The notes under the pieces were generated by a model that made no database searches, was not told the origin of the DNA, and saw nothing but the letters and a program-made list of their open reading frames with translations. From Pseudodesulfovibrio sp. zrk46 (GTDB lineage: Bacteria; Desulfobacterota; Desulfovibrionia; Desulfovibrionales; Desulfovibrionaceae), in contig NZ_CP051216.1 in the NCBI RefSeq assembly GCF_012516435.1, forward strand, positions 2,250,001-2,314,000: a DNA stretch of 64,000 nucleotides, in the 5' to 3' direction. A program made the position numbers and the translations under genes. Below are positions 5,692 through 31,267 of this stretch, one piece after another (the stretch's first letter is position 1; each line of letters opens with the position of its first letter).

Positions 5692-5886
5692 AGATACAAA
5701 CCTCCACCCCCGAACCTGTCGCGACACCCTTGGCGAGGGCATACCGGATGCATGATGCAGCGGTGCCACGAAAATAAAATAATAAGAGCATTTGCCGATG
5801 ATTTAAAGCAAACCGATAGATAGAGGGAATATTATTTCCGCCCAACATCGTGTGCACGGTGTACACTGTTGCTTGAAAATACTCAA

Positions 5887-17675: not shown

Positions 17676-18563
17676 TTATAGCGCGAAAGTCGTGTTGTTG
17701 GTCGATATCCCAAGCTGATCGCCGACGAATCCGGCAAAGGCGGAGACGATGTCCGACCGCTTTCCCGGGCGGAAGCGGATATCTATGAATACGGAGTCGA
17801 GGGCAGGGAGATTGTCCGCCGGATTGGCGTGGCGGCATCCCTCGGCCTGGGTGTCTGCCGTGACCGGGGCAATGGCAAGGCCCCCCTGCACCGCGGCAAG
17901 GACTCCGGCCAGACTTGGGCTGCCGTAGGCGATGCGATAGGCTCTGTTGTCTGCGTCGAGAGCGCGTAGGGCGCTGTCGCGATAACAGCAGACCGGGTGG
18001 AACAGGGCCAGCGGCAACACGGCAAGGTCGGCCGGAACCATTCGTTCGGGTACAATCCAGACCAACTCAAGCGGTGCGGAATAGGTGGTGGGAACTGAGT
18101 CGGTGGTGATGACCAGATCCAGCTGATCATCGTTCAGCATGTCAGCCATACGGGGCGTTTCCCCGCAATAAACATCCACCTGCACTCGTGGGTGGGTGAT
18201 AGCGAACTCCTTGAGCACTCCCGGCAGATGCTGGGTTGCGTAGTCGTCGGGTACGCCCAAGCGAATGGTGCCATCGAGCTTTGGCGTGGCGATGGCCGCG
18301 AGGGCCTCGTCGTGAAGGGCGAGTATCTTGGCGGCATAGCGGTAGAGAATCTCACCTTCCGCCGTCAGCGTGACGCCGCGTCCCTCCCGGTTGAAGAGGG
18401 CACAGTCCAACTCGGATTCCATCTTTTTCATCTGCATGCTCACCGCTGCCTGTGTGCGGTGAACCAGTGTTGCGGCCTTGGTAAAGCTGCCCGTGTCTGC
18501 TGCCACCAGAAAGGAGCGCAGCTGGTCCGGGGTGATCTGGCCCATGGTGTTCATATCAAGCAT
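17676..18563 (-). CDS. LysR-family transcriptional regulator
   Basis: A 295-residue LTTR. Residues about 10-70 form the DNA-binding domain (LRSFLVAADTGSFTKAATLV, RTQAAVSMQMKKMESELDC, LFNREGRGVTLTAEGE), and the rest is the periplasmic-binding-protein-like effector domain (IRLGVPDDYATQHLPGVLKEF). The gene is divergent from a small carboxymuconolactone-decarboxylase-type gene with a T-N11-A box between them, the usual arrangement for a LysR regulator and its target. The start could be any of three nearby ATGs (18563, 18554, 18545); none has a good ribosome site. The effector is unknown. Confidence 0.9.
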   Translation of the reverse strand: MLDMNTMGQITPDQLRSFLVAADTGSFTKAATLVHRTQAAVSMQMKKMESELDCALFNREGRGVTLTAEGEILYRYAAKILALHDEALAAIATPKLDGTIRLGVPDDYATQHLPGVLKEFAITHPRVQVDVYCGETPRMADMLNDDQLDLVITTDSVPTTYSAPLELVWIVPERMVPADLAVLPLALFHPVCCYRDSALRALDADNRAYRIAYGSPSLAGVLAAVQGGLAIAPVTADTQAEGCRHANPADNLPALDSVFIDIRFRPGKRSDIVSAFAGFVGDQLGISTNNTTFAL

Positions 18564-19213: not shown

Positions 19214-19231
19214 TACGACAGTTTTGTCGTA
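19214..19231. promoter_or_regulatory. Enhancer-type site 1 upstream of the BCCT operon
   Basis: TACGACAGTTTTGTCGTA is a perfect palindrome around a four-base centre and matches the RCGACA-N4-TGTCGY family of sites found near 27.0 and 28.6 kb. It is centred about 183 bases upstream of the predicted sigma-54 transcription start, a typical enhancer distance. Confidence 0.7.
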
Positions 19232-19282
19232 CGGCCGATTCCCCTCCTGTTTTCGGGGAAAATCTGTGGAATCGATGATTGT

Positions 19283-19298
19283 GCGACAATAATGTCGT
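19283..19298. promoter_or_regulatory. Enhancer-type site 2 upstream of the BCCT operon
   Basis: GCGACAATAATGTCGT matches the same GCGACA-N4-TGTCGC family with one end base changed. It is centred about 115 bases upstream of the predicted start of the sigma-54 promoter at 19379, roughly seven helical turns from site 1. Confidence 0.7.
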
Positions 19299-19378
19299 TG
19301 TTGATGTGTGTGGGTGAGGACGCTTGTTTGCGCGACTTTTCACAAGCAGGGCGGGGGTTCCCCGTCATTTGTGTCGCC

Positions 19379-19395
19379 TTGGCACGGAACCTGCC
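19379..19395 (+). promoter_or_regulatory. Sigma-54 promoter of the BCCT operon
   Basis: TTGGCACGGAACCTGCC matches the -24/-12 consensus TTGGCAC-N5-TTGC, with GG and GC in correct 12-base phase. It lies about 165 bases upstream of the BCCT start codon and downstream of two enhancer-type palindromes. Confidence 0.85.
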
Positions 19396-19558
19396 TATAG
19401 GGAATTCGCGTTTAACAGCGCACATGCATGATTTTCAATCTTGCGGGGGAGTGCCGCCGGCCTATTGGCGGCTAATACAGATTTCGCACAATCTATCTGT
19501 CCACTGATGTGTGGGGCAACACACGGAGGCGGACAACCGTACCCACCTTGGAGGAGGA

Positions 19559-21112
19559 ATGGCTACAAACGGCAATGACGGAGGCGTCGACCTTCGTCCT
19601 GACAACAAAATTCTCATCCCGGCGACTTTGGTTCTGATCGGCATCATCGCATGCTCGATCCTGTTCACCGAGTCGTTCGAGCAGGTTCTCAAAACCGTGT
19701 ACGGCGTCTTCACCCGTACTACCGGTACCTGGTACCTTTGGGTGACTGTCGCAATGATGATCCTCTCCTGCTTCTTCATGTTCTCCCGTTACGGCGAGAT
19801 CAAGTTTGGTGAAGAAGACGAGAAACCCGAGTTCAGCAACTACTCCTGGATCGCCATGATGTTCTGCTCCGGTGTGGCCGGCGCCGTCATGTTCTGGTCC
19901 ATCGTCGAACCCCTGTTCAACCTGGCATACCCGCCTCAGTTTGCGGAGCCGCTTTCCCGGCAGTCCTTTGAATGGGCCATGTCGTATGTCCTGTTGCACT
20001 GGGGCCCGGTTACCTGGCCTTGGTACATGGTGACCGCGCTGCCCATCTGCTACATGTACTACAAGCGCAAGAAGCCTGTTCTTCGCATCAGCTCCACCGC
20101 TGAACCCGTGATCGGCGACAAGGTCAACGGTCCGATTGGTAAGGGCATCGAAGTCTTCTTCATCATCGGCCTGATGTTCTCCAACGCCGCGGTCATGGGC
20201 GTTTCTGTACCCATCGTCAACCACGCTCTGGGTGCTGTACTGGGTATTGAGCCTAGCTTCACCCTGGAGTTGATCATCCTCGGCATCTCCGCAGTGATCT
20301 TCACCGTGTCTGTTTCCCTGGGCCTCAAGAAGGGCATCAAGATCCTGTCCGATACCAACGTGCTCATCGCGCTCGCCATGGTCTTCTTCTGCTTCGTGGC
20401 TGGCCCCACCGTGTTCATCGTGGACAACTTCACCAACTCCTTCGGCCACATGCTCGGTAACTTCTGGAACATGATCTTCTGGACCGATCCGTACACCGAT
20501 GGCTCCTTCCCTCAGGATTGGACCATCTTCTACGCATTGTGGATGGCCTCCTACGGTCCGTTCATGGGGCTGTTCATCGCCCGCATCTCTCGCGGTCGCT
20601 CTGTACGTCAGGTGGTTGCCATGGGTCTGGCTGGCGGTATCGCCGGTTCCTACATGATCCACGCGGTCTTCGGCGGTTACACCATGTACGCACAGCTCAA
20701 CGGCGTGGTTGATGCCGTGGCCATTCTCAAGGCCAGCGGCGGCCCGGCTGCTCTGGTAGCGACCCTCAAGTCCCTGCCGCTCGGACAGGTGGTGCTCGTA
20801 GGATACTGCGTGTTCTCCACCATCTTCCTGGCCACATCCGTTGACTCCTGCGCTTACGTTATCTCTTGCGCAGCAACCACTAAACTTCAGCCTGGCTCCG
20901 AACCTACTCGTGGCCATCGTTTCTACTGGGCAGCCATTCAGGCGGGTCTTGCACTGGCGGCAATCACCATGGGCGGTCTCGGACCTGTCCGCGTGTTCGC
21001 CAACTTCTCCGGTGCGCTCATGCTCATCCCCATCGCGTTCGCCATCGCGGCGTGGTTCAAGATGACCAAGGAAGACGACGCTCTGGTGAAGTACTGCTCA
21101 CCCAAAAAATAG
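19559..21112 (+). CDS. BCCT-family (betaine/choline/carnitine) transporter
   Basis: A 517-residue inner-membrane transporter of the BCCT family, with about twelve membrane segments. Diagnostic parts are GVAGAVMFWSIVEPLFNLAYPP, read here as the aromatic-rich TM region, HWGPVTWPWYMVTALPICY, SLGLKKGIKILSDTN and WMASYGPFMGLFIARISRGRSVR. BCCT carriers move zwitterions such as betaine, choline, carnitine, DMSP or related sulfonium and sulfonate compounds; the substrate cannot be read here. The ATG at 19559 is preferred because GGAGGAGGA lies directly before it; the frame is open to 19511. It is the first gene of a sigma-54 operon with an AlkP-like hydrolase and DsrE/F/H-type proteins, which suggests uptake of an organic phosphorus or sulfur zwitterion. 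Confidence 0.9.
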   Translation: MATNGNDGGVDLRPDNKILIPATLVLIGIIACSILFTESFEQVLKTVYGVFTRTTGTWYLWVTVAMMILSCFFMFSRYGEIKFGEEDEKPEFSNYSWIAMMFCSGVAGAVMFWSIVEPLFNLAYPPQFAEPLSRQSFEWAMSYVLLHWGPVTWPWYMVTALPICYMYYKRKKPVLRISSTAEPVIGDKVNGPIGKGIEVFFIIGLMFSNAAVMGVSVPIVNHALGAVLGIEPSFTLELIILGISAVIFTVSVSLGLKKGIKILSDTNVLIALAMVFFCFVAGPTVFIVDNFTNSFGHMLGNFWNMIFWTDPYTDGSFPQDWTIFYALWMASYGPFMGLFIARISRGRSVRQVVAMGLAGGIAGSYMIHAVFGGYTMYAQLNGVVDAVAILKASGGPAALVATLKSLPLGQVVLVGYCVFSTIFLATSVDSCAYVISCAATTKLQPGSEPTRGHRFYWAAIQAGLALAAITMGGLGPVRVFANFSGALMLIPIAFAIAAWFKMTKEDDALVKYCSPKK

Positions 21113-21136
21113 ACAGCATCGCGCTTTGATACCCCT

Positions 21137-21185
21137 GGGATGACCCCGGCCAACCGGAAAGGCTTCGAGCCACCGGGGTCGTCCC
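21137..21185 (+). other. Intercistronic mRNA hairpin after the BCCT gene
   Basis: GGGATGACCCCGG pairs with CCGGGGTCGTCCC, one wobble, with an inner GGC/GCC stem. No T run follows, so it is more likely a processing or 3-prime stabilising structure than a terminator, and it may give the transporter message a different level from the downstream genes. Confidence 0.55.
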
Positions 21186-21232
21186 TTGCGCGAAATGAAA
21201 ATACTAAGTAGTTGAAATTAAAGGAGAAAAAA

Positions 21233-23122
21233 ATGGCAGACCAAGCTAAAAGAGTCGCTCTGCTCGGATTCGACTGCGCTATCCCCAAGCGCCTTGAAGC
21301 TCTGATGGACGAGGGCGCTCTGCCCAACTTCAAGAAGTTCAAGGAGCAGGGTGCCTACATGACCGAGGGCTACAACATGCCCACCGTCACCCCGCCTTCC
21401 TGGGCAACCATCTGCACCGGCGCTTTCCCGCGCACTCACGGTGTCGAGGACTACTACTATTACAACGAAGGCGAGTCCCTGCACTTCTCCAAGTGCGTAC
21501 AGGCCTTCGGTTCCGACATGCTGACCGCTCAGACCATCTGGGATGCCTGGGACAAGGCCGGCAAGAAGTCCTTGGTTGTCAACTACCCGACCTCCTGGCC
21601 TTCCAAGCTGGAAAACGGTGTGATGGTACAGGGCGAAGGTTTGTCTGCCGCTGAATCCCGCTGGCAGTACGAAGGTTACGAACACCGTGAGCACCTGTGC
21701 TCCGAGTCCTGTGTTGCCACTGATTTTTACCCCATCGGCGTTCAGGCCCGCTTCGAAGAAGCTGAAGGCTGGAAAGGCTTGACCGAGGAGATGGAAGATC
21801 AGGAACCCCTGGAAATCGTTATTCCCATGGAGTTTCCCCACGCCATGGAGAAGATGGCTCCTCAGACCTGGTACGGTCTGACCTGGGAGTCCGATGACGA
21901 CGGCTACGATGTCTTTGCATTGTGCCCCGAAAAGGATTTCTCCAAGGCTTTCTACACCATCAAGCTGCGTGAATGGTCCGAAGTCATCGAAGCTGACTTC
22001 CCCATGGCAGAAGATGGCCGCATCGAAAAGGGCTACTTCCGCTGCAAGCTGATGGAACTGTCCGACGACGCAGAGGATTTCAAGCTGTACATCTCCGGTA
22101 TCACCGGTACCCATGGCTACTGCGCTCCGGCCGACGCCCTCAAGAATGTCGACTTCACCAAGAACATCCTTGCCAACGACATGGGCTTCGTCGGTCTGGT
22201 CAATGGCATCATCGACGACGAGACTGTTGTCGAGCTGGCCACTTTCCATTCCGAGTGGCTCACCGAGGTCATCACCACCCTGATGAAGGACCATCCGGAT
22301 TGGGAATTGCTGTACATGCACACCCACCTCATCGACTGGTTCTACCACGGTTACCTGGACAAGATGGACAGCGACGATCCCGAGATCAGCAAGCCCGCTT
22401 TCGATATGGAGCGCGCCATCTACCAGATCGAAGACAAGTTCCTCGGCATCATGATGGAAACCATGCCCAAGGATACCCTGACCTGCGTCATCTCTGACCA
22501 CGGCGCTACTCCCATCGGCCCGATTCTCAACACCGCCGAGGCCCTGGCTCAGGCCGGACTGACCTCTTACGAGGCTCGTTCCTCTGATGAAGCCGGTTCC
22601 GTATGGGAAGAGTCCGAAGGTTTCAACTACGAGCTCATCCCCGAGAAGTCCAAGGCAGTGCCCCAGCGCTACATGTTCGTCTACGTCAACCTGAAGTCCA
22701 AGTACCCCGGCGGTATCGTGGAAGACGAAGATTACGAGCAGGTTCGCAAGGAAATCATCGACGCACTGCTCGACTACAAGCACCCCGAAACCGGCGAACG
22801 TCCGGTCATGTGCGCCATCCCCAAGGAAGACGCCAAGGTCTTCGGCATGGGCGGCGAGCAGGCTGGTGATGTCGTGTACGTCCTCAAGCCCGAGTACATG
22901 GCTGAGCACGGCTACGGTTTCCCCACCGGCGAGTCCGGATGCGGTTCCCTCAAGAACATCATGCTGTGGAACGGTCCCGGCGTGAAGCAGGGTTACGTTT
23001 ACGATCGTCCGCGCTGGCTGGCCGACGTAGTGCCCACCTTCTGCCACGCCACCGGTAACCCGGTTCCGGCCGATACCGAAGGCGCCATCTGCTACCAGAT
23101 CTTCGAGGATCACCAGAGCTAG
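21233..23122 (+). CDS. AlkP-superfamily hydrolase/phosphomutase (COG3379-like)
   Basis: A 629-residue cytosolic enzyme of the alkaline-phosphatase superfamily. Residues about 7-70 give the family start: LLGFDCAIPK with metal ligand D14, the nucleophile region PTVTPPSWATI (Thr51 or Thr53), and PRTHGVEDYYYY. Later metal motifs are DWFYHGYLD and ISDHGATPIG, and the C-terminus ends PVPADTEGAI. It most resembles the predicted phosphohydrolase/phosphomutase group COG3379, whose substrates are largely unknown; phosphodiester, phosphonate or sulfate ester bonds are all possible. The start codon follows AAGGAGA. It lies between the BCCT carrier and the DsrH-like gene, so it probably acts on the imported compound, which is inference. 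Confidence 0.82.
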   Translation: MADQAKRVALLGFDCAIPKRLEALMDEGALPNFKKFKEQGAYMTEGYNMPTVTPPSWATICTGAFPRTHGVEDYYYYNEGESLHFSKCVQAFGSDMLTAQTIWDAWDKAGKKSLVVNYPTSWPSKLENGVMVQGEGLSAAESRWQYEGYEHREHLCSESCVATDFYPIGVQARFEEAEGWKGLTEEMEDQEPLEIVIPMEFPHAMEKMAPQTWYGLTWESDDDGYDVFALCPEKDFSKAFYTIKLREWSEVIEADFPMAEDGRIEKGYFRCKLMELSDDAEDFKLYISGITGTHGYCAPADALKNVDFTKNILANDMGFVGLVNGIIDDETVVELATFHSEWLTEVITTLMKDHPDWELLYMHTHLIDWFYHGYLDKMDSDDPEISKPAFDMERAIYQIEDKFLGIMMETMPKDTLTCVISDHGATPIGPILNTAEALAQAGLTSYEARSSDEAGSVWEESEGFNYELIPEKSKAVPQRYMFVYVNLKSKYPGGIVEDEDYEQVRKEIIDALLDYKHPETGERPVMCAIPKEDAKVFGMGGEQAGDVVYVLKPEYMAEHGYGFPTGESGCGSLKNIMLWNGPGVKQGYVYDRPRWLADVVPTFCHATGNPVPADTEGAICYQIFEDHQS

Positions 23123-23321
23123 AAATCAACACTCACTCCAGGGATTGCGGGGGCGGTGATTCTCACACCTTGCCGCTTCCGCTCCCTCCGGAGCCGTCAT
23201 CGGAACTTCGGCCCGTTTGACGAGCATCGGAACTGAGTGAAGTCGCCCTGACCATACAACCCATCCCATGCATGCCCGCGGCGACCGGACAGTGCAGGGA
23301 GCAACGAACGGAGACGCATTC

Positions 23322-23603
23322 ATGCTCTTTTTCGTGAACAAGCCGGAAGAGGGGATTCTTGATCGAATCGCTCTTATCGGCGGCGACGAGGACAAGGCCC
23401 TGCTCCTGGTCGGTGACGGAGTTACCTTCGGCACTGAATACTGGGAAGAAAAACTCGAAAACATGGATGTTGAAGACATCTACGTAGCCAAGAGCGCCGT
23501 AGAAGCCCGCAACATCGAACTCAGCGACAACTGCGAAGTAGTGGACTACCCCGAGATGGTGGACCTGCTGCTGGGCAGCGATGAAAAAGTCGTGTCGCTC
23601 TAA
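23322..23603 (+). CDS. DsrH/TusB-like sulfur-relay family protein
   Basis: A 93-residue protein. The end VVDYPEMVDLLLGSDEKVVSL and the start MLFFVNKPEEG match the DsrH/TusB fold. In TusBCD/DsrEFH these proteins form a heterohexamer that passes persulfide sulfur; DsrH itself carries a cysteine in some lineages. Here the only cysteine (about residue 71, LSDNCEVVDY) is not at the usual TusB position. It starts at 23322 after ACGGAGACG; a longer in-frame ATG at 23268 has no ribosome site. It is followed 12 bases later by a DsrE-like gene and 11 more by a DsrF-like gene, the set expected for a TusB-TusD-TusC-like complex. Confidence 0.8.
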   Translation: MLFFVNKPEEGILDRIALIGGDEDKALLLVGDGVTFGTEYWEEKLENMDVEDIYVAKSAVEARNIELSDNCEVVDYPEMVDLLLGSDEKVVSL

Positions 23604-23615
23604 GGAGGCTGCATC

Positions 23616-24014
23616 ATGTCCAAAACCCTGACCATCCTGCTCCTTTCCGGATCGGCTGAAAACGAAGACGCCGAGTTCTCCACTCGCCTCGCTCAGGCCG
23701 CCCTTGAGAAGGGACACAAAGTCCAGATGTACCTCTTTGGAAACGCCGTGAATATTTCCAAGAAGGAATTCCCCATCGAAGGCGACCTGCACATCCAGCA
23801 GCGCGGCCTTGATCACATCGATCCCACCAAGTGCTTCGAGCGCGTGGCCGACATCTGCGAGAAGGGCGGCGACGTCTCCACCTGCCACACCAACGAGCAC
23901 GCTCGCGGCATCGAGTCCCGCGAATACGTGGACGGTGTGAAGTGGGGCGACGTGGGCGGCACGTTCGCCAAGTATCTGATGACCTCTGACGTCCTGCTTT
24001 CCGTGGGTCACTAA
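23616..24014 (+). CDS. DsrE/TusD-like sulfur-relay family protein
   Basis: A 132-residue DsrE-fold protein: TLTILLLSGSAENEDAEFST at the start, AQAALEKGHKVQMYLFGNAV, and STCHTNEHARGIESREYVDG. Cys90 in the last motif is aligned with the active cysteine of TusD/DsrE, which carries the persulfide; two other cysteines (73, 81) are nearby. It is the only one of the three Dsr/Tus-like proteins here with a clear active-site cysteine. It sits in the sigma-54 BCCT operon, not in a dsr or tRNA-thiolation cluster, so the sulfur acceptor is probably different. Translation starts after AAGGAGG. Confidence 0.82.
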   Translation: MSKTLTILLLSGSAENEDAEFSTRLAQAALEKGHKVQMYLFGNAVNISKKEFPIEGDLHIQQRGLDHIDPTKCFERVADICEKGGDVSTCHTNEHARGIESREYVDGVKWGDVGGTFAKYLMTSDVLLSVGH

Positions 24015-24026
24015 GGAGAAATAACG

Positions 24027-24359
24027 ATGATCAATTCCATTTGCCTTGTCGTCTCCAAGCCCCTGGGCGTTGAAGTCGGAACCCTCGGTGTGCGCACCGC
24101 ATGGGCCACCCATGAAAAGGGCTTCGAAGCCAAGCTTGTCTACGTGGAAGAGGGAGTTTGGAACCTCACCAACAATCCCGGTTACCACAATTCCCTGCTC
24201 AGCGACCTGATCGAGGCTGACGGTGAAGTCTTCACCGTCCGTGAACACCTCGAAAAACGCGGCATCTCCGAGGACGATCTCCTCGATGGCGTGGAAGTCA
24301 TTTCCGCCGAGGAAGTGGCCGAGCTGTGCGAAGACGTTGAAACCGTCAATTACTTCTAA
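24027..24359 (+). CDS. DsrF/TusC-like family protein
   Basis: A 110-residue protein with the DsrE/DsrF fold (SICLVVSKPLGVEVGTLGVR, FEAKLVYVEEGVWNL). TusC-type subunits are structural partners in the sulfur relay hexamer. Its cysteines (near residues 5 and 103) are not at the TusD active-site position, so it is probably not the persulfide carrier. The central sequence NNPGYHNSLLSDLIEADGEV is also typical of this fold. It follows the DsrE-like gene by 12 bases after an AAGGAGA site. Confidence 0.78.
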   Translation: MINSICLVVSKPLGVEVGTLGVRTAWATHEKGFEAKLVYVEEGVWNLTNNPGYHNSLLSDLIEADGEVFTVREHLEKRGISEDDLLDGVEVISAEEVAELCEDVETVNYF

Positions 24360-24387
24360 TCAATCAAGCATTTAAGAGGATATACAT

Positions 24388-24819
24388 ATGTCTACCGTAA
24401 AATTCGAACGTCTCGACGAGAACCGTGACAAGTTTGTTGTTGGCGCAAAGGCCGTCCCTGAAATCATCATGGATTTCTCCTCCATCACCCCGGAAGAGCG
24501 CAACTCCGAAGCCATGGGTTCCCGCATCCTCGGTGTGGCCGCACTGGCTTGCTACACCAACACCATGGTCAACGCCTTCAAGCGTCAGGGTGTTGAAGTG
24601 AAGTCCCTCACCGGTTCCGCCACCGCTTCCAAGGACAAGGACGAGGTCAACCGTACCCGTTACTGCGAGCTGGAGATCAACATCGAAGTCGGTCTGGAAG
24701 AGAAGGACCGCGAGGTCTTCGAGTCCGTTAAGGACAACATGCTCAACGGCTCCCTGCTGACCTACTCCCTCGAAGAGGGCATGGAAGTCGATTACAACAT
24801 CGAAATGGTCGTTGCCTAG
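24388..24819 (+). CDS. OsmC-like family protein with one active cysteine
   Basis: A 143-residue OsmC/Ohr-fold protein. SRILGVAALACYTNTMVNAF places Cys55 at the first active-site position, and KRQGVEVKSLTGSA continues the family fold. In Ohr/OsmC a second cysteine lies in a C-P-V-S-like motif; the matching region here reads NGSLLTYSLEEG, with no cysteine, so thiol peroxidase chemistry of the usual two-cysteine type is unlikely. A role as a sulfur-handling or redox accessory is an inference from the surrounding DsrE/F/H-like genes. AAGAGGATA precedes the start, and 28 bases separate it from the DsrF-like gene. Confidence 0.82.
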   Translation: MSTVKFERLDENRDKFVVGAKAVPEIIMDFSSITPEERNSEAMGSRILGVAALACYTNTMVNAFKRQGVEVKSLTGSATASKDKDEVNRTRYCELEINIEVGLEEKDREVFESVKDNMLNGSLLTYSLEEGMEVDYNIEMVVA

Positions 24820-24888
24820 GTAACGTCCTGATATCGCGAATTTAAATAATCATCGGGCTGAGTGCCCATAATTCAAGGAGATAATCCA

Positions 24889-25467
24889 ATGGCAGATAAG
24901 AAAGTAATCGTGGTTGTGTGCGGCGAAGCTGACGTTAACGGCGGCTCCGCAGTCAAGAAGTTCATGAAGAAGGCCGTTTCCTTCGCCAATTACGAAGCAG
25001 CCGGTCTGGCTGGCATGGCCTCCGCCATCGAAGGCGCAGCTACTGTTGCTGCCGACGGCATCGCCAAGGTCTTCGAGGAAGACGGCGCTCTGGCCGTTGT
25101 CGAGCTGGGCAACGTTGACGCTGACGCTCTGGAAGCTGCCATGGCTCAGATCGTCGACGCTGCTGACCGTCGCACCATGATCGTTCTGTCCACCGAAGGT
25201 GGCCTCTACCTGGGCGGCCTCGGCATGAACAAGAAGGCCGGTGCTCAGGAGCGTGGCGTTACCGCTGCCGACATCGTTGCCTCTGTCTGCTACGTGGCCG
25301 ACCTGCCGGTTCCGGCCGACTGCATGGGCGCTGTCCTGTACCAGGCTCTCAAGGATCCCAACATGAAGCTGAAGGAAATCGGCAAGCTGAAAGAAGCCAT
25401 CGGCCGCATGGAAGTCGCTCTGCAGCGTGACAACCGCGAGCCCTGGGATAAGCACGACTGCGCTTAA
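24889..25467 (+). CDS. Degenerate AlkP-superfamily C-terminal-half protein
   Basis: A 192-residue protein that I do not recognise as a named family but which matches the end of AlkP-superfamily enzymes. TMIVLSTEGG (97-105) occupies the place of the T-x-SDHG metal motif, and RGVTAADIVASVCYVADLPVPAD (122-144) is the typical end, similar to DVVPTFCHATGNPVPAD in the upstream 629-residue AlkP protein. The Asp and His of the SDHG motif are replaced by Glu and Gly, and the N-terminal nucleophile part is missing, so it cannot be a normal phosphatase. It may be a pseudoenzyme partner of the full-length protein. Start follows AAGGAGATAATCC. It ends the run of genes before three hairpins. Confidence 0.6.
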   Translation: MADKKVIVVVCGEADVNGGSAVKKFMKKAVSFANYEAAGLAGMASAIEGAATVAADGIAKVFEEDGALAVVELGNVDADALEAAMAQIVDAADRRTMIVLSTEGGLYLGGLGMNKKAGAQERGVTAADIVASVCYVADLPVPADCMGAVLYQALKDPNMKLKEIGKLKEAIGRMEVALQRDNREPWDKHDCA

Positions 25468-25483
25468 TCAATAGCCCGCAAGA

Positions 25484-25594
25484 CCCGGCAAGTAGTTTTG
25501 CCGGGAATCAGAGGGACCGGTCATGGGACCGGTCCCTTCTCATACGACTGATAAAGGTCCGGGTGTAATTACCCCCATCGGCATCCGGACCTTT
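25484..25594 (+). terminator. Three stacked hairpins between the AlkP-like and EamA genes
   Basis: Three separate stems: CCCGGCAA/TTGCCGGG (25484-25505), GGGACCGGTC/GACCGGTCCC (25513-25536) with a four-base loop, and AAAGGTCCGG/CCGGACCTTT (25553-25594). The last is terminator-like in that three T close its stem. Together they should strongly reduce read-through into the EamA gene, which may use a promoter of its own that I cannot identify. Confidence 0.6.
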
Positions 25595-25664
25595 CTCAGA
25601 GGCATGAGGCTCTCAACTTCAATTACAATAAGATCGAAATATATCGTTTGGAGAACAACCGAAC

Positions 25665-26678
25665 ATGACCACCGCAACCATGACCCCCACGGCTTCCGTG
25701 GAGGAACTCAAAATGCAGCAGGACGTTTCCTTTGCCAAAAAAGGACTCGTCTTTGCCGTATTGTCCGGCATGAGCTGGGGGCTGGGGGGCGTCATCCTCA
25801 GTCTGGCATTTGCTGCTCCATTGTTTCTGGAGGAGGCATACTGGCTGCTGGCTCCCCTGACCGTTGGCGCGCTGCACGACTCGTTCTGCGCCCTGTGGCT
25901 GCTGGGATTCAATACCGTCACCGGTCGACTCAAGGAGCTGGGCCGTACGCTGCGCTCCAAGACTGTCCGTCCGGTTGTCCTTGGTGCCATCTTCGGCGGT
26001 CCCATTGCCATGTCGTCCTACATGCTCGGTGTGAAGTTCGCCGGTCCGGCCTATGTCATGCCCATCACGGCCCTGTATCCGGCTGTGGCGTCCATCTTTG
26101 CGGCCATCTTCCTGAAGGAGAAGATCGGTATGCGCGCATGGTGCGGTTTGTTCCTCTGCGTGGTCGGCGGCATCGTCATCGGCTACACGCCGCCCGAAGG
26201 CTCATTGGGCAATGAATTTTATCTTGGCATCGCATTTGCCTTGGTGGCCACTTTCGGATGGGGCATCGAAGGCGTGCTCGCGACCTCGGGCATGGATCTG
26301 CTCGATCCGGCCGTGGCCCTGAATGTCCGCCAGATTACTTCTTCCACCGTATACATGCTGGTGGTGCTGCCTTTGGCCGGTGGTTACGTGCTGCTCGGTC
26401 CCGGTCTGATGGATGCCTCCATCGGTTGGGTCTTCCCGGTAGCCGCCTTGGCCGGTGCGTTTTCCTACCTCTGCTGGTATCGCGCCATGAACATGACCGG
26501 CGTCAGCCGCGCCATGGCTATCAACATCACCTATTCCCTGTGGGGAATCTTCTTCTCCGCCGTATTCACCGAGGTGGAGATTACCGCCAACATCATCATC
26601 GGTGCACTGGTTATTACCACCGGGATGGTGCTGGTGGTCGGCAACCCCAAGGAAATGACCAGTCTCAGAGACGTCTAA
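25665..26678 (+). CDS. EamA/DMT-family transporter (copy 1)
   Basis: A 337-residue inner-membrane protein with ten predicted membrane segments in two EamA repeats (for example SGMSWGLGGVILSLAFAAP near residue 35 and AMAINITYSLWGIFFSAVF near residue 285). DMT carriers export or import amino acids, nucleosides or other metabolites; the substrate is unknown. It lies directly downstream of the BCCT operon and 14 bases upstream of a small winged-helix-like gene, then the sigma-54 activator. A second EamA gene is at 29145, in the other sigma-54 operon; two members of one transporter family in two co-regulated units suggests uptake and efflux of related compounds. GGAG lies 11 bases before the start. 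Confidence 0.85.
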   Translation: MTTATMTPTASVEELKMQQDVSFAKKGLVFAVLSGMSWGLGGVILSLAFAAPLFLEEAYWLLAPLTVGALHDSFCALWLLGFNTVTGRLKELGRTLRSKTVRPVVLGAIFGGPIAMSSYMLGVKFAGPAYVMPITALYPAVASIFAAIFLKEKIGMRAWCGLFLCVVGGIVIGYTPPEGSLGNEFYLGIAFALVATFGWGIEGVLATSGMDLLDPAVALNVRQITSSTVYMLVVLPLAGGYVLLGPGLMDASIGWVFPVAALAGAFSYLCWYRAMNMTGVSRAMAINITYSLWGIFFSAVFTEVEITANIIIGALVITTGMVLVVGNPKEMTSLRDV

Positions 26679-26692
26679 TTCAGGAGAAAATC

Positions 26693-26959
26693 ATGACCAA
26701 TGTTCCCTTGAAAGCCATGGTCGCTGCTTGCTTCAGCAACTGCGAGGCCCTCAATGCCCGAGCCGTCTACGACATGGTCGTGGATGATTACCCCTCAGAA
26801 AAGTACTGCTCCATCCCCATTGTGGAGGAGCACCTCAAGTCGCTTAAGGCTGTGGGTATTCTCAATGAGGAGGGCTCATATCTCAATGATGACGGTCAAC
26901 TAGTCTCCGTTTACCGGATTTCAGAGTACGGTTTGGATAAGCTGCACAAGGCTAAATAG
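26693..26959 (+). CDS. Small winged-helix-like protein of unknown function
   Basis: An 88-residue protein that I cannot assign to a named family. The pattern YDMVVDDYPSEKYCSIPIVEEHLKSLKAVGILNE, in which a helix is followed by a short loop and the sequence LKSLKAVGIL, and the end YRISEYGLDKLHKAK, look like a winged helix in the style of PadR/ArsR-like DNA-binding or adaptor proteins. Four cysteines (residues about 13, 17, 39) cluster in the first half, which could bind a metal. The ATG at 26693 follows AGGAGAAA at five bases; the frame is open upstream but overlaps the EamA gene. It ends at a terminator before the activator gene. Confidence 0.6.
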   Translation: MTNVPLKAMVAACFSNCEALNARAVYDMVVDDYPSEKYCSIPIVEEHLKSLKAVGILNEEGSYLNDDGQLVSVYRISEYGLDKLHKAK

Positions 26960-26969
26960 CGATTGTTAC

Positions 26970-27003
26970 GGCAGGGGCGGAGGACGCTCCTGCCCTCTTT
27001 TTT
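26970..27003 (+). terminator. Rho-independent terminator before the activator gene
   Basis: GGCAGGGGCG pairs with CGCTCCTGCC (one wobble) with a five-base loop, followed by CTCTTTTTT. It closes the EamA/winged-helix transcript. Confidence 0.85.
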
Positions 27004-27036
27004 CCGAAAAGAGAAAATACTTGCAGTAAAACCTTT

Positions 27037-27076
27037 GGCGACATACACGTCGCCAACCACGCGACAGAAGTGTCGC
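27037..27076. promoter_or_regulatory. Two activator-binding palindromes next to the activator gene
   Basis: GGCGACATACACGTCGCC (27037-27054) and GCGACAGAAGTGTCGC (27061-27076) lie 24 bases apart and end 27 bases before the activator start codon. The second is a perfect match to the GCGACA-N4-TGTCGC consensus. No sigma-54 -24/-12 element follows, and the sites lie close to the likely transcription start (TTGCAG near 27021 could be a -35 box), so autorepression by the activator is the simplest reading. Confidence 0.7.
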
Positions 27077-27102
27077 CGTGAAAGTGTGCAAGGAGTTTTG
27101 GT

Positions 27103-28572
27103 ATGGGCGGACCTACATACGAAGAGTTGTTTCAGCATTGTCAGGAGCTGAAGACACAACTGGAGGCATACCGGGGGACCAAGCAACAGCTTGAACAGAG
27201 CCAGCGCCAATTGACGCGACTCTTCAACAACCTGCCGGGCATGGCATATCGTTGCGCCATTGACGAAGATCATCATCCGACGCTGACCTTTGTCAGTCGG
27301 GGCAGCATTGAACTTTTCGGCGTATCACCCGAGTTTTTCACCGATCAGCAGACCAACGTCATGGAGACGCTGGCCCATCCCGAAGACCTCATCTCCATGC
27401 GCAAGGAGCAGGAAGAGGCCATCATCGGCAATCGTCCCTACAAGATGCTGTACCGCGTGTGTCTGGATGACGACAGCCGCAAGTGGATCTGGGATCAGGG
27501 CGAGTGCGTCTATGATGACGACGGCTATCCGCTCTATCTCGAAGGCATCATGATCGATATCAGCGCCCAGAAGATGCGTGAGTTCGAGCTGCTTCACGAA
27601 AACCAGAAGCTGCAGGGGGCTTTTGAAGACCGCTACAAGTTCGGCAGCATCATCGGCAAAAGTCCCGGGATGCGTGATGTCTTCAAGCTGATCATGAAGG
27701 CGTCCAAGAGTGACGCCAACGTCATTATCCTGGGTGAGACCGGCACCGGTAAGGACCTGGTGGCCCAGACCATCCATGAGCAGAGCGGGTCCGGAGGGGC
27801 GTATGTCCCCGTCAACTGTGGTGCCATCCCAGCCAACCTGATGGAAAGCGAATTTTTCGGCCACAAGAAGGGCGCGTTCTCCGGTGCGACCTCGGATCGC
27901 AAGGGCTATCTCGCTGCTGCCGATGGCGGCACATTGTTCCTCGACGAAGTCGGTGAGATTGACCTCGCATTGCAGGTGAAGCTGCTCCGCGCTCTGGAGA
28001 GCAAGCTCTACACGCCCGTTGGCGGAAGTGAACCTCAGTCTTCCAAGTTCCGCCTCATCGCAGCGACTAACCGCGACCTCGCCAAGATGGTCAAGGATGG
28101 CCGCATGCGTTCGGATTTCTTTTTCCGTCTCCACGTTCTGCCTATCCGCGTGCCTCCCTTGCGAGACAGGCTGGAAGATCTGCCGTTGCTGAGCGCGGAA
28201 TTCATGAAGCGGTATCTTGGTAGTGATGCCGAAGTACCGCCGGTTCCGGGCAAGGTTCGGGCCGCCTTTGACTCTCATCACTGGCCAGGCAACGTTCGTG
28301 AACTGCAAAACGTGCTGGAGCGATACCTCACCTTCGGGGAGATGGTGCTCAGCGATTTTGGTATCGAGACCGCCGAGTCTCCCCATGAACTGGATGGAGC
28401 CATTGAAGCGGCCGAATCGTGTTCCACGCTCACCGAAGCCATGGATGTGGTAGAGCGTCATATGATGCTCAAGGCCCTTGAAAAACATCACTGGAAAAAG
28501 GGCCTCACCGCAAAAAGTTTGGGATTAAATATGCGTACCATGCAACGAAAGTTGAAAAAACACGGTATTTAA
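27103..28572 (+). CDS. Sigma-54-dependent activator with N-terminal PAS domain (PAS-AAA-Fis)
   Basis: A 489-residue enhancer-binding protein. Residues about 5-45 form a coiled coil, about 45-160 a PAS/PAC domain (LPGMAYRCAID, RKWIWDQGECVYDDDGYPLY), and about 175-410 the AAA+ domain with Walker A GETGTGKD (211-218), Walker B GTLFLDEVGEI and an R-finger region. The sigma-54 contact loop reads GAFSGA (257-262) rather than GAFTGA. The C-terminus is a Fis-type helix-turn-helix (KKGLTAKSLGLNMRTMQRKLKKHG). There is no receiver domain, so the PAS domain is probably the signal input. It most likely drives both sigma-54 promoters at 19379 and 28772 through the shared palindromes. Start follows AAGGAG at nine bases. 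Confidence 0.9.
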   Translation: MGGPTYEELFQHCQELKTQLEAYRGTKQQLEQSQRQLTRLFNNLPGMAYRCAIDEDHHPTLTFVSRGSIELFGVSPEFFTDQQTNVMETLAHPEDLISMRKEQEEAIIGNRPYKMLYRVCLDDDSRKWIWDQGECVYDDDGYPLYLEGIMIDISAQKMREFELLHENQKLQGAFEDRYKFGSIIGKSPGMRDVFKLIMKASKSDANVIILGETGTGKDLVAQTIHEQSGSGGAYVPVNCGAIPANLMESEFFGHKKGAFSGATSDRKGYLAAADGGTLFLDEVGEIDLALQVKLLRALESKLYTPVGGSEPQSSKFRLIAATNRDLAKMVKDGRMRSDFFFRLHVLPIRVPPLRDRLEDLPLLSAEFMKRYLGSDAEVPPVPGKVRAAFDSHHWPGNVRELQNVLERYLTFGEMVLSDFGIETAESPHELDGAIEAAESCSTLTEAMDVVERHMMLKALEKHHWKKGLTAKSLGLNMRTMQRKLKKHGI

Positions 28573-28603
28573 GCAGAGTAACCTCATAATACGGTCAAAT
28601 TAG

Positions 28604-28707
28604 GCGACACCCATGTCACGTGCGACATGGGTGTCGCTTTATTGTTTATCTCTTTAAAATCAGCACTTTATCGACAATTTGGCTGGGTGAGGCGACACCG
28701 ATGTCGT
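28604..28707. promoter_or_regulatory. Three enhancer-type palindromes upstream of the second EamA operon
   Basis: GCGACACCCATGTCAC (28604-28619), GCGACATGGGTGTCGC (28622-28637) and GCGACACCGATGTCGT (28692-28707) all fit GCGACA-N4-TGTCGC with at most one changed base. They are centred about 186, 168 and 98 bases upstream of the predicted start of the sigma-54 promoter at 28772. The first two also form a larger inverted structure with each other. They follow the activator stop codon by 32 bases. Confidence 0.75.
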
Positions 28708-28771
28708 GTTTCTCGTTTTCGCCTGCATTTGTTTTGCAATTAAATTCAATTAAAACAAGGTTTTGTGTTTA

Positions 28772-28787
28772 TGGCACGCTCTGTGCT
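28772..28787 (+). promoter_or_regulatory. Sigma-54 promoter of the EamA-YitT-TSCPD operon
   Basis: TGGCACGCTCTGTGCT has the -24 element TGGCAC and a -12 GC in correct 12-base phase. The -12 half (TGTGC) deviates from TTGC at one base. It lies 32 to 170 bases downstream of three enhancer palindromes. Confidence 0.7.
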
Positions 28788-29144
28788 CAAGGGGTGTCGA
28801 TTGTGCAAAACGGATAAGCGAAGCACGGCTCAGACCTGATGTTTCGACCAGTAGCTCTTGGGAAGAGGGTGCGACACTTCCACCCTCCTCCCGGAATGCG
28901 TGAACGGCGGCCTCTTACCGGACCATTGCCATATATCCAGCCTCCTGAAACTCTTCACTACCCGAAACGAAGAGTGTCACCTCGGAGTCCGACATTCACG
29001 CCGTACTTTCTTCCCAAGAGCGTGTCCATTGCACCTGACATAACCGACGTCCTTTATCTGGAAATCACCTTCAAACTTTTCCAGCTGAGGGTTGGCCTGC
29101 CCGGTACTCCTGCCGGGCGGGCTATATACTTTGGAGCAAAAGGC
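28788..29144 (+). other. Long 5-prime leader of the second EamA operon
   Basis: About 350 bases separate the sigma-54 promoter from the first start codon. The frame of the EamA gene is open back to 28839, but that extension is rich in Pro, Arg and His, lacks a ribosome site and lies outside the family homology. Near its end CCCGG/CCGGG (about 29099-29116) forms a stem just before the ribosome site. I see no known riboswitch consensus. Confidence 0.45.
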
Positions 29145-30110
29145 ATGAGCTGGAACACATTCAAGACGACACAGGCTGCAGGCTACCTCTTCATCATTCT
29201 CGGCATCCTCAACTGGAGCGGCAACTTCGTGGCGGCACGCGGTCTGGCCGACTCCATTGATCCGGCCACGCTCAACCTGCTTCGCTGGGTTGGGGCCACC
29301 CTGTGTTTCCTGCCGTTTGCTTTTCAAGCCCTTTGGAAAGAGCGCCACATGGTCATGAAAATGTGGAAGGAGCTCTCTCTGCTCGCCCTGACCGGCATCT
29401 CTCTCTACGACACCGTAGTCTTCATGGCCGGGCATACCACTGAGGCCCTGAACATGTCTCTGATCTCTACGCTGTCTCCGCTGCTCACCGCACTGGTGGC
29501 ACAGTTTATTTTCAAGGAGAAGATCAACCAGCGCATGTACATGGGCATCGCGATCAGCACATTCGGCATCGTCCTGCTGGTCACGGACGGCAACATGGAT
29601 CAGCTGCTCTCAATGAATTTTGCGCGGGGTGACCTGCTTATTCTGAGCACGGCCATGATGTCTGCCGTCTACAATACCGTGATCAGCAAAATTACGGGCA
29701 AACTCAGCCAGACCACGCTGCTCATGGCGTGTTGCCTGTTTGGGACCGTCTACATTATTCCCTTGTACCTGTGGGAAACCGGTGGGCATGTGGTCATGCC
29801 TGAGTTCTCCACCAATCTGGTGCTTTCCCTCATCTACCTTTCGGTTTTCGCCTCCATTCTCTGCTACCTCTTCTGGAATGCGGCAGTGCAGATCATCGGC
29901 GCTCCCAAGGCCATGTTGTTCTATTACACCCTGCCTCCCATCAGCGCGGCCATCGCCTGGTTTGTCATCGATGAACCGGTCAGTTTCAACCAGATTATGA
30001 GTGGTCTGATAATTGTTGCAGGGATTCTTTTTGCTCTCTATGGTGGCGCGCCCAAAAATCGTGGGCAGGAGGAACAAGACTATGGACAACCGTCTCAGGT
30101 CACTCACTGA
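29145..30110 (+). CDS. EamA/DMT-family transporter (copy 2)
   Basis: A 321-residue inner-membrane protein with about ten membrane segments and two EamA repeats (ILNWSGNFVAARGLADSIDP near the start, ISTLSPLLTALVAQFIFKEKI in the first repeat, CYLFWNAAVQIIGAPKAMLF in the second). It is the first gene of the sigma-54 operon that starts at 28772. The start at 29145 is chosen from family homology and a GGAG ten bases upstream. It overlaps the next gene by 29 bases. It is similar in type, but not a close copy in sequence, to the transporter at 25665. Confidence 0.88.
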   Translation: MSWNTFKTTQAAGYLFIILGILNWSGNFVAARGLADSIDPATLNLLRWVGATLCFLPFAFQALWKERHMVMKMWKELSLLALTGISLYDTVVFMAGHTTEALNMSLISTLSPLLTALVAQFIFKEKINQRMYMGIAISTFGIVLLVTDGNMDQLLSMNFARGDLLILSTAMMSAVYNTVISKITGKLSQTTLLMACCLFGTVYIIPLYLWETGGHVVMPEFSTNLVLSLIYLSVFASILCYLFWNAAVQIIGAPKAMLFYYTLPPISAAIAWFVIDEPVSFNQIMSGLIIVAGILFALYGGAPKNRGQEEQDYGQPSQVTH

Positions 30111-30945
30111 TTCTCTCGCATGGAATGTGTTTTTGCTGTGCCTCGGAGCCTTCGTCTATGTTGTAGGTTTCAATGGAATAGCAGCACACCATGAATTTAT
30201 CCCCGGGGCCCTTTATGGCCTCGCGGTGGTCGGCAACAATTTCGAGCCGGAGCTTTCTCTTGCGCACTGGTACTTCTTCCTGAACGTGCCGCTCTTTCTC
30301 ACGGCATGGAAGGGTGTCAGCCGCCGGTTCTTTTTTCTCAGCCTGTTCACCATGGTCATGGTCACCATGATGACCTCGTATGTGCATGTCGATTTCGGCA
30401 TCAGGAATGAAATGTACGCGGCCATTGCGGCCGGTGCGATCATGGGAGCCGGATGCGGCATCATCCTGCGTACCTACGGCGGCGGCGGTGGCCTCGATGT
30501 GTTGGCCGTCATCCTGAACCGCAAGTATGGCGTGCGCTTCGGCGTCTTCTACTTTTTCATCAACGCCGGAGTCATGGGGTTTGCCCTCAGCCGGTATACG
30601 CCGGACAAGATCATCGCCTCGCTGGTCATGCTGTTCATCAGCTCCGTGGTGACGGAATACGTCCTCTCCCTGTTCAACCAGCGAAAGGCGGTCCGTATCC
30701 TCACCAAGAAGGGCGACGAACTGACAGAGAATATTACCCGCGTCCGCAAGATGCACGCCACTGTATTCCCCGGCAAGGGCGGATACACCGGCGATGGCGT
30801 GGACATGGTTTTTTCGGTCACGGACAATCTGCGCCTCCGCTCGTTGGAGCAGGCCGTTTTCGAGATTGATCCCGAGGCCATATTCATTGTCGAAAACACC
30901 TTCAGCGTGTTGGGCGGCAATATCGCCCGGCGCAAGGAATATTAA
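30082..30945 (+). CDS. YitT-family membrane protein
   Basis: A 287-residue protein with five or six membrane segments (for example VFLLCLGAFVYVVGFNGIA and FVFVNGPLFL-like WYFFLNVPLFLTAWKGVSRR) and a C-terminal DUF2179 domain at about residues 220-280 (RMHATVFPGKGGYTGDGVD-like, read as KMHATVFPGKGGYTGDGVD). The GAGCGIILRTYGGGGGLDVLA segment is a family hallmark. YitT proteins are predicted transporters with a small ligand-binding tail; functions are mostly unknown. It overlaps the EamA gene and is 19 bases from the TSCPD gene, so all three are co-transcribed. Start follows GCAGGAGGAAC. Confidence 0.88.
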   Translation: MDNRLRSLTDSLAWNVFLLCLGAFVYVVGFNGIAAHHEFIPGALYGLAVVGNNFEPELSLAHWYFFLNVPLFLTAWKGVSRRFFFLSLFTMVMVTMMTSYVHVDFGIRNEMYAAIAAGAIMGAGCGIILRTYGGGGGLDVLAVILNRKYGVRFGVFYFFINAGVMGFALSRYTPDKIIASLVMLFISSVVTEYVLSLFNQRKAVRILTKKGDELTENITRVRKMHATVFPGKGGYTGDGVDMVFSVTDNLRLRSLEQAVFEIDPEAIFIVENTFSVLGGNIARRKEY

Positions 30946-30964: not shown

Positions 30965-31267
30965 ATGGAAGTTAACGAAATCAATATGCCGCTGTTTTTC
31001 CCCCCGGAAGAAGCGACCACTCCTGGCGACGCCGAAATTTTCGTGCCCGAAAAAGTATGCGCCAAAATGATCCGCTACGCCGTGGAAGATGATAAGGTCG
31101 TCTACCTCGACTTTGTGGGCGGGTGCGACGGCAACCTCAAAGCCATTTCCAAATTGGTGACCGGTATGGCCATTCCCGATGTCATCGATAAGCTCAGCGG
31201 CATCACTTGCGGAAAGAAGACCACTTCCTGCGCCGATCAACTGTGTGAGGCACTGAAGGATCTGTAG
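30965..31267 (+). CDS. TSCPD-domain protein
   Basis: A 100-residue protein made of one TSCPD domain (about 30-98). DFVGGCDGNLKAISKLVTG, GITCGKKTTSCADQLCEAL carry the conserved cysteines that may bind a metal. The domain is best known from the tail of anaerobic or B12-dependent ribonucleotide reductases; stand-alone forms exist in anaerobes but have no established role. It ends the sigma-54 operon, with a terminator 24 bases after the stop. GAGGAG precedes its start at about nine bases. Confidence 0.8.
   Translation: MEVNEINMPLFFPPEEATTPGDAEIFVPEKVCAKMIRYAVEDDKVVYLDFVGGCDGNLKAISKLVTGMAIPDVIDKLSGITCGKKTTSCADQLCEALKDL

Follow-up and report, generated by a model that had tools for sequence, protein, structure and literature searches.

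A 64,000-nucleotide stretch of Pseudodesulfovibrio sp. zrk46 (contig NZ_CP051216.1, positions 2,250,001 to 2,314,000; the whole stretch is called the window, and coordinates are window positions) appears to encode a self-contained sigma-54 regulon, composed of an activator, the palindromic DNA site (dyad) that it would recognize and the operons carrying this site. We give this reading a probability of roughly 0.87. The sites, the sigma-54 elements, their fixed spacing, their conservation and the linkage between activator and site were established by computation, and from these sequence patterns we infer that the activator binds the dyad, activates the targets and represses its own gene. In the proposed mechanism the activator would be a one-component enhancer-binding protein whose PAS domain is probably a sensor of redox state or of a small molecule, whose Fis-type helix-turn-helix dimer would bind the 16-bp dyad RCGACA-N4-TGTCGY and whose AAA+ ring would contact the RNA polymerase-sigma-54 complex. 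Two or three dyads located at about -98 to -186 would serve as upstream activating sites for an operon starting with a BCCT transporter gene and for an EamA-YitT-TSCPD operon, and the dyads at the activator's own gene would mediate negative autoregulation.

An earlier note on this DNA had reported seven GCGACA-N4-TGTCGC palindromes in front of the two operons and the activator gene. All seven are real, and two of their coordinates had to be corrected, from 19214 to 19215 and from 27037 to 27038. When up to two mismatches are allowed this pattern has nine matches in the window, eight of which fall in the three named regions: two exact (27061 and 28622), four with one mismatch (19283, 27038, 28604 and 28692) and two with two mismatches, at 19362 and at 19215 (ACGACA..TGTCGT, which is all the same a perfect dyad). 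The ninth lies elsewhere, at 5721. With up to three mismatches 64 matches are found against a mean of 39.1 in shuffled sequences, and none of 100 shuffles reached 64. The entire 4.08-Mb genome contains 19 sites with at most one mismatch, from which about 0.3 would be expected per window, and six are observed here. Sixty sites, drawn from the window and from nine orthologue loci, were used to train a position matrix and gave the refined consensus RCGACA-N4-TGTCGY, in which bases 3 and 5 (G and C) are invariant. The sites of the three regions are as follows.

19215 to 19230, unstranded: operator site 1 of the BCCT operon (ACGACAGTTTTGTCGT); matrix score 19.1, counterpart in all ten orthologue loci.
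19283 to 19298, unstranded: operator site 2 of the BCCT operon (GCGACAATAATGTCGT); matrix score 21.9.
19362 to 19377, unstranded: weak third copy adjoining the -24 element (CCGTCATTTGTGTCGC); matrix score 14.0.
27038 to 27053, unstranded: operator upstream of the activator gene, overlapping a possible -10 element; motif and matrix match.
27061 to 27076, unstranded: second operator upstream of the activator gene; motif and matrix match.
28604 to 28619, unstranded: operator of the EamA operon; motif and matrix match.
28622 to 28637, unstranded: operator of the EamA operon, exact; motif and matrix match.
28692 to 28707, unstranded: promoter-proximal operator of the EamA operon; motif and matrix match.

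The copy at 19362, which is absent from the earlier note, was considered as an operator and rejected, as it has no counterpart in nine relatives and is probably due to chance.

Exact matches to the refined consensus are concentrated at this locus. All five in the window's own genome lie within it, and of the 37 found in the ten carrier genomes (genomes and loci are given by G and L labels), of which G018 has none, 31 lie in the corresponding clusters. The 27 genomes of the same genus that lack an activator orthologue hold 38 exact matches, no two of them near each other. Raw genome counts at up to one mismatch do not distinguish carriers (8-27) from ten non-carriers (9-22), so that the evidence lies in the clustering and position of the sites and not in their number. 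Isolated exact matches in G025 (two), G027, G178 and one of those in G011 are inside open frames and were treated as chance.

The -24/-12 elements that the earlier note had placed before both target operons were found by sequence match.

19380 to 19394, plus strand: sigma-54 -24/-12 element of the BCCT operon (TGGCACggaacCTGC); at the same place in all ten loci.
28772 to 28786, plus strand: sigma-54 -24/-12 element of the EamA operon (TGGCACgctctGTGC); present in nine of the ten loci.

With -24 placed at the GG, the site-centre distances proposed before (about -183/-115 and -186/-168/-98) are correct. The centre of the promoter-proximal site is situated 87.5-91.5 bp before the -24 GG of the BCCT operon in all ten orthologue loci, and 72.5-75.5 bp before that of the EamA operon in the nine loci with a recognizable element.

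Sixty genomes were searched for the activator. Nine of the 59 others have an orthologue, at 72-80% identity, and the next best match drops to 42%. In all ten loci, the window included, paired sites precede both BCCT (two sites) and EamA (two or three sites), and the gene order BCCT, phosphodiesterase, 192-residue protein, 88-residue protein, activator, EamA and YitT is maintained. A site with at most two mismatches precedes the activator gene in eight of the ten. Activator homologues devoid of sites near sigma-54 promoters, which the earlier note had named as one outcome that would refute it, did not occur, and the loci with the 42% activator paralogue (G003 and G029) have no site pairs. Some genes vary within this frame: TusBCD and OsmC are missing from G022 and G027, the first EamA gene is missing from G023, and TSCPD was not found in any of these three. 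In place of the missing genes, G022 and G027 have a divergent OsmC-like gene equipped with its own two sites.

The scan of relatives for sites, sigma-54 elements and activator homologues that had been proposed as a check revealed their co-occurrence across the order. The phosphodiesterase is present at 60% identity or more in 56 of 297 Desulfovibrionales genomes, in one of them (G204) as a partial match; at E 1e-60, 58 genomes match, but two have nothing beyond paralogues of 39-42% identity. In loci that did not contribute to the training set, the matrix places a site within 450 bp upstream of BCCT genes in 32 of 34 cases, of activator genes in 27 of 34, of phosphodiesterase genes, which are often second in their operon, in 31 of 44 and of OsmC genes in 14 of 28; for the second and the first EamA gene the figures are 8 of 13 and 7 of 19, respectively. 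With 60 column-permuted matrices the mean totals were 0.0-0.1 per gene group, and no total exceeded 2. The matrix finds no site at six phosphodiesterase paralogues, four activators below 45% identity, 11 TusD genes and 9 YitT genes. Across 54 phosphodiesterase loci, ten of which served for training, a site pair is present in 49 and a pair together with a sigma-54 element, counted when 30-160 bp from a site, in 48. A sigma-54-like element lies at this distance from 134 of 252 sites, compared with 7.6% of random positions, and the spacings within site pairs cluster at 18-23, 67-72 and 86-90 bp. In a second scan, of 39 loci in named genomes that overlap the 54-locus set, a site occurs in all 24 loci having a phosphodiesterase of at least 62% identity and at least 300 bp of upstream sequence, and a pair in 18 of them; the nine loci with a phosphodiesterase below 62% have no site pairs, and one of them, L061, has the activator and two sites. 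The other eight, all labelled Deltaproteobacteria bacterium, have the phosphodiesterase but no activator, BCCT or site on stretches of 3 to 22 kb, and constitute a natural control within the limits of these lengths. In all, as would be expected for the regulon of a sigma-54 enhancer-binding protein, dyads lie upstream of the targets' -24/-12 elements, and activator, operator and targets are inherited together.

Loci with paralogous phosphodiesterases (37-42%; L156, L158, L157, L160, L161 and L162) have no paired palindromes. Two of these, L156 and L158, carry their own activator (41-44%), OsmC-TusB-TusD-TusC genes and the recognition helix LPRKTLFRK, and probably represent a sister regulon with another site.

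The activator itself has the domains that the earlier note had assigned to it, a sigma-54 AAA domain (Sigma54_activat, 2.4e-62) and a Fis-type end (HTH_8, 3.9e-10), in addition to a PAS_3 domain; none of the 25 best NCBIfam matches listed reaches its cut-off.

27103 to 28572, plus strand: sigma-54 enhancer-binding activator; PAS_3, AAA+ (GAFSGA loop) and Fis-type helix-turn-helix.

In a phylogenetic tree one branch (support 100/99) separates the 44 activators of these loci from 24 paralogues, some of which raised a long-branch warning. The signature [NT]-x-R-T-x-Q-R-[KR] in the recognition helix is found in all 44 activators and in none of the 24 paralogues; it was written post hoc from the alignment and describes the split without being an independent test of it. 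By a full-length criterion, 42 of 53 phosphodiesterase loci have the activator on the stretch retrieved; among the remaining eleven, L135 and L128 show a match, that of L119 is in the next stretch and others end early. Upstream of the gene, and recognizable from the alignment alone, the ten orthologues have a CTTG followed about 21 bases on by a CATA-like element. This conserved element lies inside the position of the first dyad, so the dyads at a possible sigma-70 -10 most likely block the activator's own promoter, that is, negative autoregulation.

The BCCT operon is longer than first described, with nine plus-strand genes followed by a terminator-like hairpin. The genes of both target operons are listed below.

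19559 to 21112, plus strand: BCCT-family transporter, first gene of the operon; Pfam BCCT 4.6e-129.
21233 to 23122, plus strand: phosphodiesterase of the alkaline phosphatase superfamily (NPP/PhnA-like), 629 amino acids; conserved Thr nucleophile and metal ligands.
23268 to 23603, plus strand: TusB-like; Pfam DsrH/DsrE over cut-off.
23616 to 24014, plus strand: TusD-like; Pfam DsrH/DsrE over cut-off.
24027 to 24359, plus strand: TusC-like; Pfam DsrH/DsrE over cut-off.
24388 to 24819, plus strand: OsmC-like protein; weak OsmC match below the Pfam cut-off.
24889 to 25467, plus strand: phosphodiesterase partner, 192 amino acids; weak resemblance to the C-terminal half of alkaline phosphatases.
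25665 to 26678, plus strand: EamA/DMT-family transporter; family match.
26693 to 26959, plus strand: conserved 88-residue protein, last gene of the operon, adjoining the activator gene on its 5' side.
26970 to 26994, plus strand: intrinsic terminator-like hairpin after the BCCT operon; hairpin scan.
29142 to 30110, plus strand: EamA/DMT transporter of the EamA operon; family match.
30082 to 30945, plus strand: YitT/DUF2179 membrane protein; family match.
30965 to 31267, plus strand: TSCPD protein; family match.

The best solved match of the BCCT transporter is DddT (324 bits), which we take to be a dimethylsulfoniopropionate (DMSP) transporter, followed by CaiT (264). In G038 the BCCT gene (L038:3605-5154) matches as two overlapping pieces and may be frameshifted or affected by a sequencing error. 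As in NPP-type enzymes, the residues and the fold match of the phosphodiesterase show a Thr nucleophile and a two-metal site of the kind found in the alkaline phosphatase superfamily: D14, T53, D368, H372, D422, H423 and H559 are invariant in 30 of 30 aligned sequences, with roles that we presume to be those described for Xac NPP. Its structural model (pLDDT, a confidence score, of 87.5) matches alkaline phosphatases and NPP enzymes, two of them crystallized with phosphocholine; because NPPs score alike, these matches are no proof of a choline substrate. The protein has no signal peptide as judged by eye and would be cytoplasmic. In 35 of 39 loci the gene of the 192-residue partner follows that of the phosphodiesterase, and the sequence of the remaining four stops within about 150 bp of the phosphodiesterase gene. 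Its model has only weak matches, to alkaline phosphatase and sulfatase folds (best E 2e-3), and its tail, REPWDKHDCA, with a penultimate cysteine, is almost invariant in 25 aligned sequences. A penultimate cysteine is also a feature of DsrC and TusE tails, and its presence beside TusBCD-like genes is suggestive; the partner is perhaps a sulfur- or thiol-carrying protein. The TusB-, TusD- and TusC-like proteins fall below the NCBIfam Tus cut-offs, and the 88-residue protein has no Pfam or NCBIfam match.

With regard to function, we propose that the module imports and processes choline or a choline-like compound by means of the BCCT importer, the NPP-like phosphodiesterase and its cysteine-tailed partner. 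It would also comprise TusBCD-like and OsmC-like thiol carriers and the EamA and YitT membrane proteins, to which the module of relatives would add OsmC-Lpd-GcvH(-LipA) and, in six genomes, the choline trimethylamine-lyase CutC. Choline is a plausible signal; the identity of the substrate is the most tentative part of the model. The strongest pointer to choline is CutC, which exceeds its cut-off in 56 of the 297 genomes. It is strongly associated with the phosphodiesterase (odds ratio 30, p 3e-22): 39 genomes have both genes, 17 have CutC only, 17 the phosphodiesterase only and 224 have neither. In the genus of the window, CutC is found in four of nine carriers versus one of 27 others (p 0.009). 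In 16 of the 39 genomes the two genes are within 30 kb of each other, and in many others they are on different contigs. The lyase region was fetched for 28 of the 39, and in six of these carriers a site and a sigma-54 element lie upstream of the CutC operon. In four of these (G285, G290, G119 and G246) they are followed by OsmC, by Lpd and/or GcvH and then by CutC, the CutC activase being confirmed in G119, and in G173 and G247 by a shell protein, an aldehyde dehydrogenase and CutC. No site was found in the 15 regions fetched from the 17 CutC genomes without the phosphodiesterase. The regulon of two operons and an activator proposed in the earlier note is supported and was drawn too small, since the BCCT operon has nine genes and the regulon is order-wide and extends to CutC in six genomes of related genera. 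A choline-responsive sigma-54 activator may coordinate import of choline or a choline phosphoester, its intracellular cleavage by a new NPP-like enzyme together with the pseudoenzyme partner that has the cysteine tail, and, depending on the lineage, CutC; it would be a dedicated regulator of trimethylamine formation in these bacteria. We hold this view tentatively, at somewhat less than an even chance, and the same chance applies, jointly with it, to the suggestion that such an activator is common to sulfate reducers living freely and in the gut, the relatives being labelled Pseudodesulfovibrio, Desulfovibrio, Mailhella, Bilophila, Halodesulfovibrio and Desulfomicrobium.

A number of observations weigh against this picture, some against the regulon and others against its link to choline. 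The non-carriers G005 and G010 hold five and four scattered exact matches, the activator gene of G026 and of G018 is not preceded by a site with up to two mismatches, and G038 has no recognizable sigma-54 element before EamA at up to two mismatches. Six loci (L121, L125, L130, L134, L135 and L144) lack the full arrangement, L121, L134 and L144 being contigs of less than 8 kb, and a simple promoter scan called no consensus sigma-70 promoter before the activator gene. As to choline, 22 of the 28 carriers with a fetched lyase region, the window's own genome included, lack the site arrangement before CutC; the CutC cluster of that genome (L180), 366 kb off, has no site. Use of choline would not be expected to involve TusBCD, OsmC or lipoyl proteins. 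The pocket of the BCCT transporter differs by lineage, with WM in this genus and FW in the gut group, and because of this variation the attempt to deduce the substrate from pocket residues led to no conclusion. Finally, a control glycyl-radical lyase of similarly patchy distribution, HpsG, is enriched as well, which indicates that shared ancestry contributes to the CutC association; its odds ratio of 2.9 (p 0.0004) is far below the 30 obtained for CutC, and generic co-occurrence was therefore rejected as the cause of the link, kinship not being otherwise corrected in this comparison.

The regulon could be real and its substrate another zwitterion, such as DMSP, carnitine, glycine betaine or a sulfur-containing amine, with the TusBCD and OsmC proteins handling the released sulfur; this has close to an even chance. 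It would agree with DddT being the closest solved BCCT protein, with the co-regulation of TusBCD-like, OsmC and lipoyl genes and with the 17 of 56 phosphodiesterase carriers that have no CutC over cut-off, whereas the co-occurrence with CutC and the six CutC operons under the same site argue for choline. A single site upstream of proV, the ATPase gene of a glycine betaine ABC (ATP-binding cassette) transporter, can also be cited in its favour. This site lies at 396 bp in G001 and G011 (L220 and L221), whose proteins are 97% identical, and at 213 bp in G155 (L241), and among 23 upstream regions proV sites of at least 12 bits were found in three of 12 carriers and none of 11 non-carriers. Against it, no sigma-54 element adjoins any of the three sites, and nine of the 12 carriers scanned lack them. 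We regard the proV site as a further hint of quaternary amines.

That the dyad is read by a different regulator, the activator being there incidentally, seems improbable to us. The two proteins that come into question, a LysR-type protein (17676-18563) and the 88-residue protein, both adjoin sites, and the latter is kept in all ten close loci. The LysR-type protein was nevertheless matched in the window alone among the twelve stretches compared, and was rejected as the reader of the site, whereas an 88-residue homologue was found in 18 of the 53 phosphodiesterase loci as compared with 42 for the activator, several of the other eleven being cut by contig ends. The eight stretches with the phosphodiesterase and without activator or BCCT likewise contain no sites, in line with reading by the activator. 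Even harder to credit is that the palindromes are RNA hairpins or chance repeats and not operators. One copy does score as a weak terminator-like hairpin, yet the distance to the -24 element is constant within about 4 bp, the pair spacings cluster (at 67-72 and 86-90 bp), permuted matrices find almost no sites and the 27 activator-less genomes have no clusters.

Enhancer-binding proteins of the NtrC, NifA, PspF and NorR type have an AAA+ domain with a GAFTGA-type loop, a Fis-type helix-turn-helix and dyads upstream of -24/-12 promoters. The present activator shares the loop type (GAFSGA here), the Fis-type helix-turn-helix and the upstream dyads with them, and differs in having PAS as its only input domain and a dyad and recognition helix of its own. 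A regulon of such a protein with its own operator is of a known kind; the gene content and the choline link are new. The main text of a survey of D. vulgaris Hildenborough describes 36 regulons of sigma-54 enhancer-binding proteins, mostly of one to four operons, in which distances of up to 100 nt between a promoter and the nearest site are the most frequent (Kazakov et al. 2015, PMC4641369). As in the regulons presented there, the activator gene is located beside its sigma-54 operons, which have upstream binding sites. By their descriptions, the targets listed in Table 1 of that survey do not match the present ones, and no entry mentions a relation to choline or betaine (PMC4641369). The main text of that article, motif logos and supplements being outside the comparison, has no match for choline, betaine, BCCT, EamA, TSCPD, OsmC, phosphodiesterase, GCGACA or TGTCGC. 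The earlier note knew of no named regulon with this site, and we likewise found no description of one among the literature matches listed or in the main text of PMC4641369. Neither did the literature matches listed include a regulator of the cut cluster (CutC and its activase) in sulfate reducers. Here the regulon site and a sigma-54 element precede the CutC operon in six Desulfovibrionales genomes, in contrast to the window's own genome, where the cluster is located elsewhere and has no site. The phosphodiesterase has its fold and catalytic residues in common with the NPP/phosphonoacetate hydrolase branch, from which it differs by its low identity to the solved members listed (9-14%), its 629 residues and the cysteine-tailed partner gene that follows it.

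Operator, activator and order-wide regulon can be recognized jointly from sequence and are directly testable. A single signal would tie together a series of uncharacterized genes, those for the NPP-like phosphodiesterase, its cysteine-tailed partner and the TusBCD-like, OsmC-like, YitT and TSCPD proteins. If this signal were choline, the production of trimethylamine by sulfate reducers, gut genera included, could be approached through its regulation.

Some relatives have further targets. Away from the main cluster, an OsmC-Lpd-GcvH-LipA operon in G154 (L163:6127-9760) has three sites and a sigma-54 element, and OsmC-Lpd genes in G233 (L164:7746-9956) have three sites, with no sigma-54 element recognized; these OsmC-Lpd targets form the lipoate side of the regulon. 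G062 has an OsmC-Lpd-GcvH-EamA target. In G181 (L172:15478-17664) a site and a sigma-54-like element lie upstream of a methyl-accepting chemotaxis receptor gene, and chemotaxis toward the regulon's substrate may be co-regulated. At six loci where BCCT was not found (L146, L137, L143, L145, L147 and L151) an outer-membrane porin gene takes its place behind the site and the sigma-54 element; the porin family was checked for L146, where DESULF_POR1 exceeds its cut-off (L146:7059-8645).

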